This document shows, in pieces, positions 1,686 to 60,724 of a stretch of DNA of 64,000 bases. How positions within the stretch are numbered: position 1 is the first letter of the stretch; the number at the start of each line of letters is the position of its first letter. The notes below the pieces were generated by a model. The model was not told the DNA's origin, made no database searches, and was given only the letters and a program-made list of their open reading frames with translations. The DNA is from Dyadobacter alkalitolerans DSM 23607. Lineage in GTDB: Bacteria > Bacteroidota > Bacteroidia > Cytophagales > Spirosomataceae. The stretch lies in the NCBI RefSeq assembly GCF_000428845.1, contig NZ_AUAS01000007.1, forward strand, positions 310,001-374,000, given 5' to 3'. A program made the translations under genes and the position numbers.

Positions 1686-3311
1686 ATGCAATTCAAAATA
1701 AAACTCCTGGCAGCCATCGGCACATTGATGCTTATGCAGGGATGCAGCGAAGAATTCCTGGACCGCCCGCCACTGGACGCGCTCACTTCGGGTAATTTCT
1801 ATAAAACCGATGCCGAAATCCTGGCCGGAACGGCGCCGCTTTACAACATTGTGTGGTTCGATTTTAATGACAAGGCCAACATGTCTTTTCAGGAAGCGCG
1901 TGCCGGTAACCTCAATTCCAACGACCGGACGGCATACGTTAAGCACGCCATTCCATCGACGGATGTAAATACGCTTTTGCCGGGTTACAAATCGTTTTAC
2001 AAAATCATTGCGCAAAGCAACAATGCTTATAAGGCGATCAAGGAAGCGACCGGAAGCACGGCTTCGGCCACTGTAAAAGCGCAGGGATTGGGCGAATGCC
2101 GTTTCATGCGTGCAACAGCCTATTACTATCTGGTATCCAACTGGGGCGCAGTGCCGATTGTGTATGATAACGTGGCACAGCTTAACTCGCCACCGGTCCG
2201 CAACCGCGTTGAAGATGTGTGGAAGCTGTTAATTCAGGATTACCGTTTCGCAGCAGAAAACCTTCCCGTTACTGCCGATCAGGGCCGTTTGACAAAATAT
2301 TCAGCCGAAGGAATGCTGGCCAGAATGTACCTGATGCGTGCCGGATTGAACCAGAAAGGAACGCGTAACCAGTCGGATCTGGACAGTGCGAAATATTATG
2401 CGGAAGATGTGATCACCAAAAGCGGCCGAACGCTGGCTCCAACCTATGCGGAGCTGTTTGAAAGTGCTAATAACAACTCTTCCAAAAATAATCCGGAAAG
2501 CTTGTTCTCGCTGCAATGGATGCCGGTAAGCAGTCCGTGGGGAGTTAACAATTCGTTCCAGGCATACTTTGCTTACGACGCCAACATTACCACAACGGGT
2601 GATGGCTGGGGCGCAGCGCAAGGCTTGTCGGCGGATCTGGTTAAATATTTTGTAGAAAACCCTGCGGATTCACTTCGCAGAAAATCAATCGCCATGTTCG
2701 ATAGCGATGTGTACCCGAACATTCAGAAAGCGACCGGTGGTTTGAAATACAACAGGCCTGCGCAATTATCGGCGATTAAAAAATACATTGTCGGATCGCC
2801 GGCAGATAATGGTGGTTTGGGCGGATTCATGGCTGCCAATATCAACTCCTATATGCTGCGTCTGGCCGAAGTTTATCTGATTTATGCAGATGCAGTTTTG
2901 GGTAATGCGGCTACAACCAATGATGCCAAAGCATTGCAATACTTCAATGCGGTGCGCAAAAGAGCAGGCCTGGCGGCTAAAACTTCACTGACTTTCGAGG
3001 ATATTTTCAAAGAAAGAAGAATTGAAACCGTATTTGAAGGTAACTCCTGGAATGAGATTGTCCGCTGGTATTATTTCAACCCGGCCAAAGCAATTGCTTA
3101 CACCGCTGCACAACGCAGGGAGAACTATACAATGACTTACGTGCCAGGTTCTACCAATCCGAAGAAATACACCGTGACTTATTCGCCGGCTGAGTATTAT
3201 CCGTTATCGGAAAATACGCTTTACCTGCCGTTGCCTGAGGGTGAGCTCGTGAATGCACCCTCATTGAAAGGCGAACCGGTTCCTTTTGATTTCAGCACAT
3301 TAGTTGACTAA
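1686..3311 (+). CDS. SusD/RagB-family glycan-binding lipoprotein
   Basis: 541 residues, usual SusD length. The N-terminus is a lipoprotein signal with lipobox LMQGC at about residues 16-20, followed by the typical SEEFLDRPPLDALTSGNFY. Internal TPR-like helices (for example GECRFMRATAYYYLVSNWG) and the C-terminal RNAVRKRAGL-type motif (FNAVRKRAGLAAKT, then FKERRIETVFEGNSW) are family hallmarks. It should sit on the cell surface capping the SusC barrel encoded immediately upstream and capture oligosaccharides. Co-transcribed with SusC and with the binding protein 19 nt downstream. The substrate cannot be read from the protein alone; the downstream GH31 points to an alpha-linked xyloside or glucan. 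Confidence 0.95.
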   Translation: MQFKIKLLAAIGTLMLMQGCSEEFLDRPPLDALTSGNFYKTDAEILAGTAPLYNIVWFDFNDKANMSFQEARAGNLNSNDRTAYVKHAIPSTDVNTLLPGYKSFYKIIAQSNNAYKAIKEATGSTASATVKAQGLGECRFMRATAYYYLVSNWGAVPIVYDNVAQLNSPPVRNRVEDVWKLLIQDYRFAAENLPVTADQGRLTKYSAEGMLARMYLMRAGLNQKGTRNQSDLDSAKYYAEDVITKSGRTLAPTYAELFESANNNSSKNNPESLFSLQWMPVSSPWGVNNSFQAYFAYDANITTTGDGWGAAQGLSADLVKYFVENPADSLRRKSIAMFDSDVYPNIQKATGGLKYNRPAQLSAIKKYIVGSPADNGGLGGFMAANINSYMLRLAEVYLIYADAVLGNAATTNDAKALQYFNAVRKRAGLAAKTSLTFEDIFKERRIETVFEGNSWNEIVRWYYFNPAKAIAYTAAQRRENYTMTYVPGSTNPKKYTVTYSPAEYYPLSENTLYLPLPEGELVNAPSLKGEPVPFDFSTLVD

Positions 3312-3330
3312 CCCTAATTTTTGAAAAGCA

Positions 3331-4497
3331 ATGAACTTTAAAAATATATATAGAACAGCACTGGGGCTGTGCCTGGCAGCGGGAATGCTGCTTTCGTTCC
3401 AGAGCTGTAATGACGACGATGTGGACGGCGCACCTTCCATCACAAACGTCCGCCTGCTCGACCCTACCAAAGCCGACAGTTCGCTGAATGCAGCAGAACC
3501 CGGCAGTCTGATCGTGATCCAGGGGCAGAACCTGGGGAGTGTGATGAAAGTCTATTTCAATGATTTCGAAGCTACATTCAATGCTGCATTGGGCAGCAAT
3601 TCGAATCTCATTGTGACCATTCCGGCGAATGCGCCTACGAAGGCTGTGGACGCGGGGGTTTCCAATAAGATCAAAGTACAGACCCGGGGCGGAGAGGCTA
3701 CTTACGACTTCGTATTATCGGCGCCAACGCCGGTGCTCACAGGTTTGTATTCCGAATTTGTAAAGCCGGGAGGCACGCTGGTTATCAACGGAGATTATTT
3801 TTATAACATTAAATCCGTAAAAGTAGGCGCGACCAACTTGCAGATCCTGAGCACTACGGTGAAGCAGATCACCGCCAAAATGCCCGCTACTGCCGTTTCG
3901 GACATTGTTACGGTGGAGGGAGAATTTGGCAGTGTCAAAACCACTTTCAAAGTGAACGGTATGGAAGGGCATATGGTCAATTTCGATGTGCCAGCCACAA
4001 CCTGGGGAGCAGAAGTATGCTGGGGCGGAGCGGCGATTGTGCCGGCAACGGATGCGAACGCGATCTCAGGTAAATATTCGCGGATCAAACAAACCAAATT
4101 ACCCGCAACCGGCTACGCCGACGCGTGGGTTTTCTCTACTTGCAGTTTCGATTTCAAGCTGGCAGCAGGTCCGGCCGCTGAGAGACAATTCAAATTCGAG
4201 CACAACATTGCAGAGCCTTGGAAAGCAGGTAAATACGAAATCACGATCACCGCAGGCGGCACCGAATTCGTATACGCATTCCAGCCCTGGAATTCCACAG
4301 AATTCACCGCAACCGGTTACCAAACCAATGGATGGAGAACGGCAGTCATAGAACTTTCCGAATTCAAAAGTGCATCAGGAGGCACCATCGCGGACGCATC
4401 CAAAGTAAGCGATCTGAAAGTATCATTCGGCACAGCCGACGTTGCCATTGCTTCGTTCAATGGAAGTGTTGATAATTTCAGGATTGTGAAGAAGTAA
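3331..4497 (+). CDS. IPT/TIG-domain surface glycan-binding lipoprotein (SGBP-B-like)
   Basis: 388 residues. Lipoprotein signal with cysteine in FQSCNDDD at about residue 26. Two IPT/TIG immunoglobulin-like repeats follow (about 36-125, containing GSLIVIQGQNLG, and about 128-210, containing GGTLVINGDYF). A C-terminal beta-sandwich (about 215-388, FNGSVDNFRI near the end) resembles the glycan-binding domain of SGBP proteins of xyloglucan loci. It follows SusD by 19 nt and precedes a GH31 gene, the usual place for an extra surface binding protein. Binding specificity is inferred from this domain order only. Confidence 0.85.
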   Translation: MNFKNIYRTALGLCLAAGMLLSFQSCNDDDVDGAPSITNVRLLDPTKADSSLNAAEPGSLIVIQGQNLGSVMKVYFNDFEATFNAALGSNSNLIVTIPANAPTKAVDAGVSNKIKVQTRGGEATYDFVLSAPTPVLTGLYSEFVKPGGTLVINGDYFYNIKSVKVGATNLQILSTTVKQITAKMPATAVSDIVTVEGEFGSVKTTFKVNGMEGHMVNFDVPATTWGAEVCWGGAAIVPATDANAISGKYSRIKQTKLPATGYADAWVFSTCSFDFKLAAGPAAERQFKFEHNIAEPWKAGKYEITITAGGTEFVYAFQPWNSTEFTATGYQTNGWRTAVIELSEFKSASGGTIADASKVSDLKVSFGTADVAIASFNGSVDNFRIVKK

Positions 4498-56920: not shown

Positions 56921-58060
56921 TTAAATAATCTGTCTTTCAGCTATTTCAAGCTTGTATCCCTTCCCATGAACATTCGTTATTCTTAGCTCAGGATCAGAGC
57001 TTAATTTCTTTCGCAGTTTGGACACAAACATGTCCAGACTGCGACTGGTGAACACCCCTTCATTGATCCAGACTTCCTGCATCAGCGTTTCTCGGGAGAT
57101 CAGTTCACCGAAATTTTTGTGGAGCAGTTCCAGAACCTTGCATTCTTTGTCTGTGAGACTAATCGCCTCGCTTCCCAAAAGCAAGCGCTGACCCTTCACG
57201 TTAAATAAAAAACTTCCGAGCGCAGCCAATTCCGGAACCGGCTCTTTTATGACAGCTTGGTGTTGATTTTGCCCGGGCACCGGTTTTAAATTTTTCCTAA
57301 AATAACCAATCAACAAGGTGGCACCCAGCAATGCAAGAACGCCGCCATAAACATTAATTAATGGATAGTCAAAGGTTGTCGTTTTTAATTCTTCAAGTTT
57401 GGGACTGACTTCCGTAGGGCCCGTTTCAACGGATTTGAGCTGCTTAGCCCGTTGGCCGATGTGAGAGTCGACGGTTGCCGTTTCTAATTCTTCAAGTTTT
57501 GGATTGGTCACCCGAGCCTCCACTTTAACTGATCCAGTCGGCTGGTCGATGTCAGCTTTGTTCCACTTTATATTCTCATAAAAATCCGGAAAGGCGAATT
57601 CGATTGTATAACAACCTGCAGGCTGACTTCTGCCACTGCAAGCGAGGATGTTCGACGATGTATTATTCACCTGGAAACCATAGACGATGTCGCCTTTCAG
57701 GCAATCATGTACTGTAACGGTGTAACCGGATGGGAACTGTGTTTTGGGAAGTAAGTCCTGTGACAACACCACGAGCGAGTCGTGATTAAAAACAAATTCA
57801 TTTTCGAACCTAAGCAGAAACGTGCCTTCTTTAATCTCGGTAACCGGTAATACGCGTGAGGTTGAGTCACCTGCCTGCAGCAGCAGCCGATGACCAGTTT
57901 GACGGATCATGAGGTTCACTTCCTTCGCCCGTAAGTCACGGCCGGAATGTTCTACGAAAGACGAGGTGCTAAAAAACATAGCAAGCATCACCGCGGTAAT
58001 GCCTGATTTCACCACCAACCGGTTAGTGAAAAAGCCAGTTAAAGCAGAATTTACACGCAT
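56921..58060 (-). CDS. Membrane-anchored winged-helix (OmpR/PhoB-type) transcriptional regulator
   Basis: 379 residues. An N-terminal hydrophobic segment (VVKSGITAVMLAMFFSTSSF, about 17-36), a beta-rich extracytoplasmic domain (about 45-190), a linker with two copies of a 33-residue unit (PKLEELETATVD and PKLEELKTTTFD), a membrane helix (YGGVLALLGATLLIGYF, about 236-252) and a C-terminal winged helix (about 275-375: SLTDKECKVLELLHKNFGEL, LISRETLMQEVW, VHGKGYKLEI). It is a one-component sensor with the DNA-binding domain at the C-terminus, the mirror image of CadC/ToxR. Divergent from a secreted propeller gene; the 88-nt gap is their common promoter. Confidence 0.85.
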   Translation of the reverse strand: MRVNSALTGFFTNRLVVKSGITAVMLAMFFSTSSFVEHSGRDLRAKEVNLMIRQTGHRLLLQAGDSTSRVLPVTEIKEGTFLLRFENEFVFNHDSLVVLSQDLLPKTQFPSGYTVTVHDCLKGDIVYGFQVNNTSSNILACSGRSQPAGCYTIEFAFPDFYENIKWNKADIDQPTGSVKVEARVTNPKLEELETATVDSHIGQRAKQLKSVETGPTEVSPKLEELKTTTFDYPLINVYGGVLALLGATLLIGYFRKNLKPVPGQNQHQAVIKEPVPELAALGSFLFNVKGQRLLLGSEAISLTDKECKVLELLHKNFGELISRETLMQEVWINEGVFTSRSLDMFVSKLRKKLSSDPELRITNVHGKGYKLEIAERQII

Positions 58061-58148
58061 TTACATTTCTTTTTACAATTGATTTACACGGTGCAGTAAC
58101 GCGGATGCCTACATTCGGATATGTTAAATTAAAACAATTTACTTGTAA

Positions 58149-59258
58149 ATGAAAATGACCAAATCCGTGCACATTACAGCGTTATTTGTGTTGATTCTAT
58201 CCACTTTTTGTGAGGGACAAGGCCTGCCAAAAGAGACTAAGTCGGAAACGAAAGAATTGATTATCTCTGATGTGCCTAAGACAATCGCCCGTAATATTAT
58301 AAAAGATAGTAAGGGCAATATGTGGGTTGCAGCGTTTGATGGTATTTTTCGGCACGATCCCACACGGGCAGTAGGAAAGTCGTTCACGAACATTACGAGC
58401 AAAGTAAGTTCAGCTCGTTTTTTTGATGTATTAGAAGATAAAAAAGGAAACTTCTGGTTTTCGACCACTGGCTCCGGAGTGTATTATTACGAACCCGGAC
58501 GGGCAGGTGGGGAAACTCTCCGGCATTTCACAATGGAGGATGGGCTCGCCAGTAATCAGGTTCTTGATATTTATGAAGATAAGACCGGCAACATCTGGTT
58601 TGGGACAAAAGCCGGAGCAAGCCGCTACGATCCCGCTCGGCGGTCCGATTCGGCCGCTCAAAGGTCCGATACGCTAGGGGCAAAAGGAAAATCCTTTACG
58701 ACATTTAAGATGAACGAAGGATTGTCGCGTTTTGACCCTTATGATAATGATGTTAATTCAATTGTTGAAGACAATACGGGGAAATTTTGGTTTGGCACAA
58801 GGGGCAAGACTTTCACTTTTGACGGGAAAAAGTTTACCGTCGTCACCAATCATGGTGAAACTTTTTTGAATGTTCGTAAGATAATTAAGGATACGAAAGG
58901 TAACGTCTGGCTGGCAAGCACAGAAGACGGCCTTTGGCGCATTAATGGCAATACATTTACCAATTTTTCACAACAACCTACCGGGTATGTCTACGAAGAC
59001 AAAAAAGGCAATATCTGGACCAGTTCGCAACCTCCGTATAACGGAAGCGACAAATGGGCACTTTCCCGTTTCGACGCGCAGACATTGTCTAACCAAAAGC
59101 CTACTGTAACCGATGTAATGTCGGAATACGAAGATTATAAAAATTTGATTTTTGGTATCGCAGAAGCGAGCGATGGAAGCATCTGGTTTGGCACTTTAAG
59201 TGGAGTGTATCGGTATGATGGCAGTGCTATTACTGCCTTAAATAAAAAGGATCATTAA
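58149..59258 (+). CDS. Secreted two-component-regulator-type beta-propeller protein
   Basis: 369 residues, signal peptide VHITALFVLILSTFCEGQG. Repeated ligand-sensor blades: NIIKDSKGNMWVAAFDGIFR, EDKKGNFWFSTTGSGVYYY, EDKTGNIWFGTKAGASRYD, EDNTGKFWFGTRGKTFTFD, DTKGNVWLASTEDGLWRIN, EDKKGNIWTSS and DGSIWFGTLSGVYRYDGS: about seven blades as in the sensor half of hybrid kinases, but with no kinase. A short duplicated insert (RRSDS/QRSDT, residues about 164-176) interrupts one blade. As divergent neighbour of the membrane regulator it may be its ligand-binding partner or target. Confidence 0.85.
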   Translation: MKMTKSVHITALFVLILSTFCEGQGLPKETKSETKELIISDVPKTIARNIIKDSKGNMWVAAFDGIFRHDPTRAVGKSFTNITSKVSSARFFDVLEDKKGNFWFSTTGSGVYYYEPGRAGGETLRHFTMEDGLASNQVLDIYEDKTGNIWFGTKAGASRYDPARRSDSAAQRSDTLGAKGKSFTTFKMNEGLSRFDPYDNDVNSIVEDNTGKFWFGTRGKTFTFDGKKFTVVTNHGETFLNVRKIIKDTKGNVWLASTEDGLWRINGNTFTNFSQQPTGYVYEDKKGNIWTSSQPPYNGSDKWALSRFDAQTLSNQKPTVTDVMSEYEDYKNLIFGIAEASDGSIWFGTLSGVYRYDGSAITALNKKDH

Positions 59259-59277: not shown

Positions 59278-60724
59278 AAGACGTCAGGAATTTGCTATGG
59301 ATCTGGACAGATAGTCGAGGTTATACAGTCTCACGTTCGAGACAAAAAGGTTACCCTGCGCGGGATAGTCAGTCATACCACCGGTCTTACAGTGCACGGA
59401 TTCCCGGGATACGCGGTGGGCACGAAGATTCTTTCGGTCGTTCAAATTCTGGATGGGACAGACCCGGCCAATACACCACCGGTTCGCGTAGACTTTGTTC
59501 CCGGCTCCCGTTGGAGGTATTCAGGTGGCGGGTATACCGTTATGCAACAACTGATGGTGGATGTGACTGGCGGTGATTTTCCTGAATTTATGAAAAATAA
59601 GGTGCTATCGCCATTGGGTATGACAAATAGTACCTACCAGCAACCTTTACCTCCGGAACTGGCAAAATTGACAGCAACCGGTCACTACAACAATCGAAGT
59701 TTAGTGGAAGGTCGCTGGCACATTTATCCTGAGATGGCAGCAGCGGGATTGTGGACTACGCCGTCCGGTCTGGCCCGGTTCGCGATTGGTGTTCAGAATG
59801 CTTATGCTGGAAAATTTGGAAGTGTAATATCCCAATCCATGACCCGCCAGATGTTGACAGATCAGAAAAACAGGGATGGACTTGGTGTTTTTTTGCAGGG
59901 GGATAGTACTACGCTCCGCTTCGGTCACAATGGGCGCGACGAGGGTTTTGACGCGTTACTTACTGCTAGTGTGGACAAAGGACAAGGCGTCGTGATCATG
60001 ATCAATGCGAATGATAACTCGCATATGATGGGCAGGATTGTTGATTTTATCGCTGACTATTACCACTGGGACGGATTTCCTGTAAAGACTAAATCGACCG
60101 CGGTGGATGTGGCTTTCAAAACTTTAAAGGCTTTCGAAGGCCGGTATGAATTATTTAATAATCGAATTGTCACTTTGCAGGCTGAAAATCAGCGACTCTT
60201 TACCTTGGAAGATGGTTTTGTTGATGAAGAATTTGTGCCCGTCGCTAATAATACGTTTACATCGACGGACCGCAATGTTTCTGTGATCTTCAATACCGAC
60301 GCTACTGAAAATGCGACTGGCTTTACGCTTCAAGACAATGATCAAAAGTATGAGCGAAAAGTACCACGTATCGGGCCGCTTGCCGATGCCCATCAAACCA
60401 ATCCCGACCGGATCCGTCACGCACACCCAAAATCTTGGCGGCTTTGCAGGCTATGGAAAAGGTGGTAAAGTATTAGAAGAAGCATCAGGCCTTACTTTGG
60501 GAGCCAAACGCGATTTTGCAGGAGGAATGCGGGAGCCGGAAGCTCTGAAATCATTAACCTTTATTCATTCAGAAAACGTCGCAGGCCGGGGAATTCAACG
60601 CCATGAAAGCGATGTAAGCGAAATAGTAACTTACCAATTGAAGTCCAATCTGCCGGAGACCTATATACTTGTCCATCTGACCTCCGACGGCCTGGTTACG
60701 GATTGCGATCTGGTTGAAAAATAA
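59278..60724 (+). pseudogene. Beta-lactamase-family serine hydrolase, 5'-truncated and frameshifted
   Basis: The frame is open from 59278, but recognisable family sequence begins only at VTLRGIVSHTTGLTVHGFPG (about 59350). The catalytic SxxK motif, normally about 60 residues earlier, is absent. Preserved: VPGSRWRYSGGGYTVMQQLM (YSG motif), LSPLGMTNSTYQQPLP, PEMAAAGLWTTPSGLARFAI, FGHNGRDEGFDALL. Near 60420-60470 the frame breaks twice; the C-terminal region continues in another frame (AKRDFAGGMREPEALKSLTF ... VHLTSDGLVTDCDLVEK) to 60724. Without the nucleophile it cannot be active. Confidence 0.8.

Follow-up and report, generated by a model that had tools for sequence, protein, structure and literature searches.

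A predicted membrane-integrated one-component regulator of Bacteroidota, its TTTACA repeat array and its exchangeable secreted partners

What might a membrane-bound transcription regulator and a secreted propeller protein have to do with each other when their genes depart in opposite directions from one short intergenic region? The question is raised by a locus in the 64-kb stretch of Dyadobacter alkalitolerans DSM 23607 analysed here (the window), in which the gene of a 379-aa membrane regulator (REG; 56921-58060, minus strand) lies 88 nt (58061-58148) from that of a 369-aa Reg_prop protein (PROP; 58149-59258, plus strand). The ORFs, coordinates and strands agree with the divergent arrangement given in a preliminary description, which had proposed that the two proteins form a split one-component system in which the propeller feeds signal to the regulator. 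This interpretation is supported in part: the linkage between regulator and propeller proved to be real across genera, but the regulator has several interchangeable secreted partners, of which PROP is one. Our own reading, which we consider reasonably probable, is that REG is a one-component activator that controls an exchangeable secreted partner through an array of TTTACA repeats, and that the partner probably signals back to the sensor of REG.

The assignment of REG draws on its ORF, Pfam, hydropathy and genus orthologues. Its sole Pfam match at E <= 0.1 is Trans_reg_C (PF00486; E 1.3e-19), which places a PhoB/OmpR-type winged-helix DNA-binding domain at the C-terminus (aa 298-371; 56948-57169, minus strand); no kinase or receiver was found at this threshold, as the preliminary description had held. 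The best NCBIfam model, RprY, scores 86 bits in the winged-helix part alone, against a cut-off of 370 bits. Averaged over 19 residues, hydropathy is highest at aa 234-252 (1.93), with another maximum at aa 15-33 (1.56). The first peak marks a transmembrane helix (about aa 233-254; 57299-57364, minus strand), which appears as helix 235-255 in the full-length model, and the second an N-terminal hydrophobic segment (about aa 15-35; 57956-58018, minus strand) that may be a signal peptide or a signal anchor. The membrane helix described earlier is thus present, but with two hydrophobic segments it is not strictly the only one. The sensor is predicted to face away from the cytoplasm, beyond the inner membrane, and the winged helix to be cytoplasmic, the latter because of the hydropathy profile and the positive residues that follow aa 254. 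A search of 47 other Dyadobacter genomes found orthologues of 66-83% identity in 13, and in 12 of these the frame is full-length and begins at the conserved start (the N-terminus in G028 is atypical). Two genomes of the genus, G009 and G038, hold only remnants of REG (aa 81-118 and 313-379 in G009), indicating decay within the genus.

Between the hydrophobic segments lies the sensor domain (aa 38-166; 57563-57949, minus strand), delimited from a 75-sequence alignment, an AlphaFold model and its cysteine pattern. Modelled alone, it takes a confident fold (pLDDT 89, pTM 0.86). Foldseek returned no solved structure at E <= 0.001; comparison of the model with structures in VIA gave weak matches at best (Z 6.2, rmsd 4.0-4.1 over 94-95 aligned residues), and the sequence had two weak matches in the PDB (E 0.78 and 0.95). 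The Foldseek and VIA matches, among them Hsp90/gyrase-type ATPases, AlaX and the norovirus P domain, were weak and scattered, and we drew nothing from them. No Pfam family of weight was found for the sensor among the 75 members: at E <= 0.01, four match Tox-HDC (best 0.00061) and three match two other families. Conservation within the alignment is pronounced. C141 (57638-57640, minus strand) is invariant in 75/75 sequences, within a C-x-x-R motif that mostly reads C-x-G-R, and R53, D65 and R144 are likewise invariant. The other two cysteines, C120 (57701-57703) and C150 (57611-57613), both on the minus strand, occur together in 63 sequences and are replaced together in 12, with neither ever found alone. 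It is entirely from this joint presence or absence that we propose a C120-C150 disulfide; the simplest reading of the pattern leaves C141 apparently unpaired.

PROP has a signal peptide, is possibly a lipoprotein, and was assigned by ORF, Pfam and motif scan. It matches Reg_prop (PF07494) with E 7.2e-31 and 102.7 bits (curated cut-off 20.4), and the motif scan places seven repeats at aa 53, 97, 144, 208, 248, 284 and 342 after discounting extra pattern matches at aa 225 and 266. Its earlier description as a complete secreted propeller holds for the domain, the repeats and the signal peptide; a closed fold, that is, one seven-bladed propeller, is consistent with the repeats. The protein ends in KKDH and has no terminal cysteine. 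Directly behind PROP lies a 5'-truncated gene of a beta-lactamase-family serine hydrolase (PF00144 + DUF3471; 59292-60468, plus strand); in L208 the gene that diverges from REG is an intact relative of it.

Reg_prop propellers are known from hybrid two-component systems (HTCS), and they are best known as parts of hybrid two-component sensors. PROP could then be a sensor half left behind by a hybrid kinase, and REG a response regulator in decay, so that the pair would be debris. We regard this as highly improbable: it is largely contradicted by the conservation of REG, with 12 of 13 orthologues full-length, by sensor residues that stay invariant across 75 sequences, and by stand-alone Reg_prop proteins, which are found next to REG again and again across many genera. 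Kinase, receiver and AraC-type domains are absent from the Pfam matches of both REG and PROP, and the likeness to HTCS is confined to the type of propeller, PROP being a separate secreted protein. The proposed REG system would also give a role to stand-alone secreted propellers of the Reg_prop and BNR types.

The preliminary description had also proposed a shared promoter. The intergenic region holds a conserved array at a fixed spacing from a -7 element directed toward the partner. Four TTTACA direct repeats begin at 58050, 58060, 58072 and 58083 (58050-58088, plus strand) in steps of 10, 12 and 11 bp, the second overlapping the REG start codon (58058-58060). This is more order than chance would give: nowhere else in the 64-kb window do two or more TTTACA words follow each other at 9-13 bp. 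A -7-type promoter element toward PROP, TACATTCG (58110-58117, plus strand), starts 32 bp after the end of the third repeat (58077) and differs from the consensus TAnnTTTG at one position. The Bacteroidota -7 element is described in PMC6847099 as spanning positions -12 to -5, which would put the PROP transcription start near 58122. The idea that the one changed position inactivates the promoter was dropped; TAnnTTCG stands at the equivalent place in 16 of 46 arrays from other genera.

Both features recur. TTTACA direct repeats 10-12 bp apart are found across the genus, with at least three repeats at 13 of 14 loci, the sole exception being the copy beside REG in G035, where one repeat is mutated; in seven genus loci the array region is 20 bp longer. 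On the genus side, a set of 50 arrays that includes a few from the same family and order, TAnnTTTG follows the array after 31-32 bp in 29; the distance is 20-21 bp in six (counted from the fourth repeat where present) and 51-52 bp in four. Among the 46 arrays from other genera, 22 have TAnnTTTG at 31-32 bp, and 38 have it when TAnnTT[TC]G is allowed. A search of 85 genomes for three-repeat arrays gave 63 matches at 55 distinct places, against 7 matches for a reversed-pattern control. At 46 of the 55 places the array adjoins a REG sensor, a partner-family gene or both. The nine that adjoin neither speak against our model; four of these precede an FKBP-type lipoprotein family (two of the genes assigned by BLAST cluster and two judged by eye), and five fit neither group. 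In the genome of the window, the pattern occurs in only two places, at REG and at a REG paralogue on C16.

PhoB-type activators work from tandem sites that are spaced by one turn and keep a constant distance to the promoter. REG would, on this pattern, be a membrane-integrated one-component transcription activator, one of a family in many Bacteroidota, whose periplasmic sensor controls the cytoplasmic C-terminal winged helix. The winged helix would bind the tandem TTTACA repeats, whose spacing is close to one helical turn, and array-bound REG would recruit RNA polymerase to the -7 promoter, which follows the third repeat at 31-32 bp, driving the divergent secreted partner gene (operonic in some paralogues). 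At loci such as the one in the window, at which array and REG start codon overlap, REG would probably also repress itself, because REG bound at the second repeat is expected to hinder its own expression. We infer array binding, activation and autorepression from the arrangement of sites and genes. With a predicted operator, a promoter spacing, a partner and a candidate reactive cysteine, each step proposed for the REG family is open to simple reporters.

To follow the family beyond the genus, peptides of the winged helix were scanned against 84,980 species genomes. This returned at least 578 relatives, many of which may be ordinary response regulators, and the loci of the best 80 of them were examined. 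These come from Chryseobacterium, Flavobacterium, Pedobacter, Mucilaginibacter, Chitinophaga, Spirosoma, Marivirga and other genera. Of the 76 loci retained from outside the genus, 74 have a REG-type sensor. Our main counts refer to 66 of the 76, after exclusion of loci with at most 1 kb upstream or with no neighbour by our rule, which counts as neighbours up to three chained divergent genes plus one upstream gene on the REG strand. Locus L196, from a MAG record named Flavisolibacter and probably close to the genus at 64% identity, has too little upstream DNA and is uncounted; an earlier neighbour rule had missed partners in L250 and L259. At least two TTTACA repeats are found at 51/66 loci and at least three at 39/66, with 15/66 lacking even two; the reversed word gave 0/66.

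The neighbours fall into a small number of families. Five partner families, initially drawn up from the genes that adjoin REG within the genus and its order, account for at least one neighbour at 52/66 loci, compared with 6/411 other ORFs. By locus, the families are CL15 (23), Reg_prop (19), BNR (8), CL18 (5) and CL2 (3). Co-occurrence in other genomes had been set as a test in the preliminary description, and it was found: a PROP homologue lies in the neighbouring unit at 19/66 other-genus loci, and a propeller of either kind (Reg_prop or BNR) at 26/66. The partner of REG would accordingly be exchangeable, whether a BNR propeller, a Reg_prop propeller or a CL15, CL18 or CL2 protein.

Counts were lower in an even draw across the phylum, in which the sensor was matched in 24/296 genomes and 16/140 genera (two of the 24 genomes solely by weak kinase-length matches). 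From its 29 loci, eight were set aside: L282 and L300 belong to the genome studied here, L274 and L278 had already been examined, and L296, L297, L301 and L302 are frames of about 420 aa with weak scores, L302 proving on checking to be a kinase. The 21 further loci, two of them from genomes already sampled (G051 and G093), have at least two repeats in 13, at least three in 9 and a neighbour with a C-terminal cysteine in 8. Because of these lower counts, we consider that the best 80 loci, biased to REG's own kind, overstate the pattern of array and tail. On a tree of the sensors, partner labels change 28 times, against a mean of 54.5 for shuffled labels; the tree has 106 rows, of which 88 were labelled by hand and two are under half filled, few columns, and 62 of 103 inner branches left open. 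The window REG falls in a starred set of 14 rows, 11 of them BNR. The partners of REG are thus clustered on the sensor tree, yet exchanged, as far as the sequences compared can tell.

Within Dyadobacter, the exchange appears to have left traces at the locus itself. At 12 of the 13 loci with a REG orthologue, the divergent neighbour is a secreted BNR-type protein of another family, with BNR/Asp-box and Sortilin-type repeats and a terminal cysteine, which we take to be a propeller; PROP is the immediate neighbour at none of the 13. It is for this reason that we regard PROP as an exchangeable partner. The thirteenth locus, in G035, has a broken BNR copy beside REG. On a second contig of the same genome an array, BNR and PROP follow one another in the same direction, with no REG within the 12 kb examined, and in G034 the order is REG, BNR and then a 3' fragment of a Reg_prop gene. 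The PROP orthologues in G009, G017 and G035 are about 79-84% identical to PROP, and the copy in G034 is the fragment. No BNR relative was found in the 6.29-Mb genome of the window at E <= 0.001, with a query that found a relative in 29/99 genomes at E <= 1e-25. Alignments of the window place a junction within 58130-58148 (plus strand), close to 58138-58140, where the promoter and leader of a lost BNR gene are joined to the PROP leader. A similar junction is seen in G009, where REG is reduced to remnants, and the two fit a single shared deletion.

The present adjacency of REG and PROP therefore most likely arose by loss of an intervening BNR gene: the ancestral BNR partner would have been lost, and PROP would now stand directly behind the same promoter. 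Such an origin leaves room for an accidental pair, in which the loss of BNR brought PROP beside REG with no functional tie. We consider this rather unlikely, but it has points in its favour, namely the junction and the absence of BNR, the missing cysteine tail of PROP, G017 (where PROP is kept with no close REG and no array of at least two repeats within the 14 kb examined), the decay of REG in G009 and G038, and the truncation of the hydrolase behind PROP. Against it, PROP already lies behind BNR in the same direction in G035, and its fragment likewise in G034; PROP homologues occupy the REG-neighbouring unit at those 19 loci of other genera; and the -7 element keeps its 32 bp after the third repeat, with a short leader before PROP. 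The division in G035, with REG and a mutated array at one place and an intact array-BNR-PROP unit at another, fits REG acting in trans, with decay as the alternative.

If REG activates the partner gene, a further question is whether the partner also informs REG. The layout of the locus is most directly read as making the partner a target of REG, as the array and the -7 element point at the partner gene with activator-like spacing. The partner might then be an output gene only, never contacting REG, with REG sensing redox state, envelope damage or a ligand. This explanation carries appreciable weight, although we hold it to be less probable than not: arrays also precede partner genes that lie more than 1.5 kb from any REG (L177, L183, L188 and L102) as well as the FKBP lipoprotein, and the sensor retains C141 even where the partners have no tail. 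What it leaves unexplained is that the partner stays beside REG in many genera though targets of the array can sit elsewhere, and that unrelated partner families share a C-terminal cysteine, mostly as Gly-Cys, for which ordinary outputs have no need. It is this conserved adjacency, together with the odd tail, that suggests a partner reporting back. Under the activator model with feedback, the partner would probably act on the REG sensor from the periplasm, via the cysteine tail where one is present; we put this feedback forward as a hypothesis.

The tail itself is well marked. Of 109 neighbour genes, 42 end in cysteine, mostly Gly-Cys, and they are spread over 39/66 loci; the background among other ORFs of the examined loci is 5/436, of which two are partners missed by the neighbour rule. 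All BNR (9/9) and CL15 (23/23) partners have it, as do CL18 (3/5) and CL2 (2/3), compared with 3/19 Reg_prop partners and 2/50 unclassified neighbours, and the terminal cysteine is the only one in many CL2 and CL15 proteins. At 27/66 loci there is no Cys-tailed neighbour, and the tail is absent from PROP and from 16 of the 19 Reg_prop partners. A connection between the tail and the C120/C150 pair of the sensor was considered, and the numbers (36/57 versus 3/9) are too few to claim one. More speculatively, one type of sensor might read the common C-terminal Gly-Cys tail of unrelated secreted proteins, the tail cysteine pairing with or being gauged by C141, while the regulator controls the tailed protein via the array; the various folds would then be exchangeable input modules, and PROP-like proteins a mostly tail-less variant. 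We judge this extended scheme doubtful as a whole, and the contact between the tail cysteine and C141 is a conjecture within it. A common C-terminal cysteine facing an invariant, apparently unpaired sensor cysteine may nevertheless be a clue to how an extracytoplasmic protein could signal to a transcription factor.

Most of what is known of membrane-integrated one-component regulators comes from gammaproteobacteria, and in the ToxR family the winged helix is N-terminal and the sensor C-terminal. REG resembles ToxR, CadC and TcpP in its OmpR/PhoB-type winged helix, in the membrane helix between domains and in a periplasmic sensor with cysteines. As with ToxR and ToxS, the gene for a periplasmic partner adjoins the regulator gene; ToxR activity is described as depending on periplasmic cysteines and on ToxS (PMC7496328). 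In REG, however, the order is reversed, with the sensor at aa 38-166 and the winged helix at aa 298-371, and for this reason we do not file it under the ToxR/CadC type. It further differs from ToxR/CadC in a partner that is divergent and exchangeable, and in its phylum, Bacteroidota; none of our sequence or structure searches linked its sensor to those of ToxR, CadC or TcpP. The REG family is like the known periplasmic-partner regulators, with the winged helix at the opposite end. The domain order is shared with SusR-like proteins, described as one-component activators of Bacteroidota with a periplasmic sensor and a C-terminal cytoplasmic DNA-binding domain (PMC3878776). By the same description, the DNA-binding domain of SusR is not significantly similar to those of other known regulators, and the two sites predicted for SusR are separated by 67 or 77 bp (PMC3878776); on that account of SusR, REG is set apart by its clear PF00486 domain and by repeats 10-12 bp apart. 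In the open-licence literature searched, we found no paper recognisably on the REG family or its array; others may exist.

A last comparison is with RprX/RprY, from which REG differs in having sensor and winged helix in one chain, with neither kinase nor receiver. The genome of the window encodes a histidine kinase (HisKA, HATPase_c) whose sensor is distantly related to that of REG (E 1.6e-7) and whose gene lies beside that of an RprY-like regulator (C13:159089, assigned from partial sequence and below the model cut-off). REG may have arisen by fusion of an RprX-like sensor and an RprY-like winged helix. Such an origin is favoured by the sensor link and not by the winged helix, which matches the RprY-like regulator with E 5.3e-16 and two other regulators of the same genome with E 2.4e-16 and 4.3e-16.

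Judging from its remnants, the membrane regulator REG is undergoing loss in some lineages of the genus. Such remnants were found in two genomes (L131 in G009, and G038:C4:585337-585471), and in G009 the array of tandem TTTACA repeats, the predicted operator, and the secreted Reg_prop propeller PROP are retained while REG itself persists only in this fragmentary form. A separate observation comes from G035, in which decay is complementary between two loci (L133, G035:C35; L041, G035:C75). One of them retains the array, a gene of BNR, the usual partner family in the genus, and PROP, without REG; at the other REG survives, but the BNR gene is a pseudogene and the array is mutated.

REG paralogues in the genus (L038 and several of L151-L170) mostly follow the operon order array, CL2 partner gene, REG. 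At several of these loci, genes for MacB/FtsX-type permeases (ADOP) come next, with an MFS gene opposite. TTTACA arrays also precede genes for FKBP-type lipoproteins in four cases from four genomes (L107, L128, L172 and L174), with neither REG nor partner-family genes within 1.5 kb. These lipoprotein genes are a possible further target of the REG family of regulators.

REG may be a kinase-free fusion derived from a pair such as that at L302 (contig C13 of the strain's own genome), where a 414-aa histidine kinase, whose sensor is a distant relative of the REG sensor, adjoins an RprY-like regulator.

At L237, REG has as its divergent partner a fusion protein that combines a Reg_prop propeller with a YceI domain (2248-3816); a 217-aa neighbour at L212 shares its terminal residues, KIVAKK, and gave no match to the propeller model. 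In G010 and G031 (L142/L143), a Reg_prop gene adjoins a Cys-tailed BNR gene, and the stretch examined around the pair gave no match to REG; the two propellers can thus travel together.

Directly behind PROP in the window lies a gene for a beta-lactamase-family serine hydrolase (PF00144 and DUF3471; 59292-60468, plus strand), missing the first ~130 profile positions. An intact 512-aa relative is the divergent neighbour of REG at L208, followed by a Reg_prop gene.
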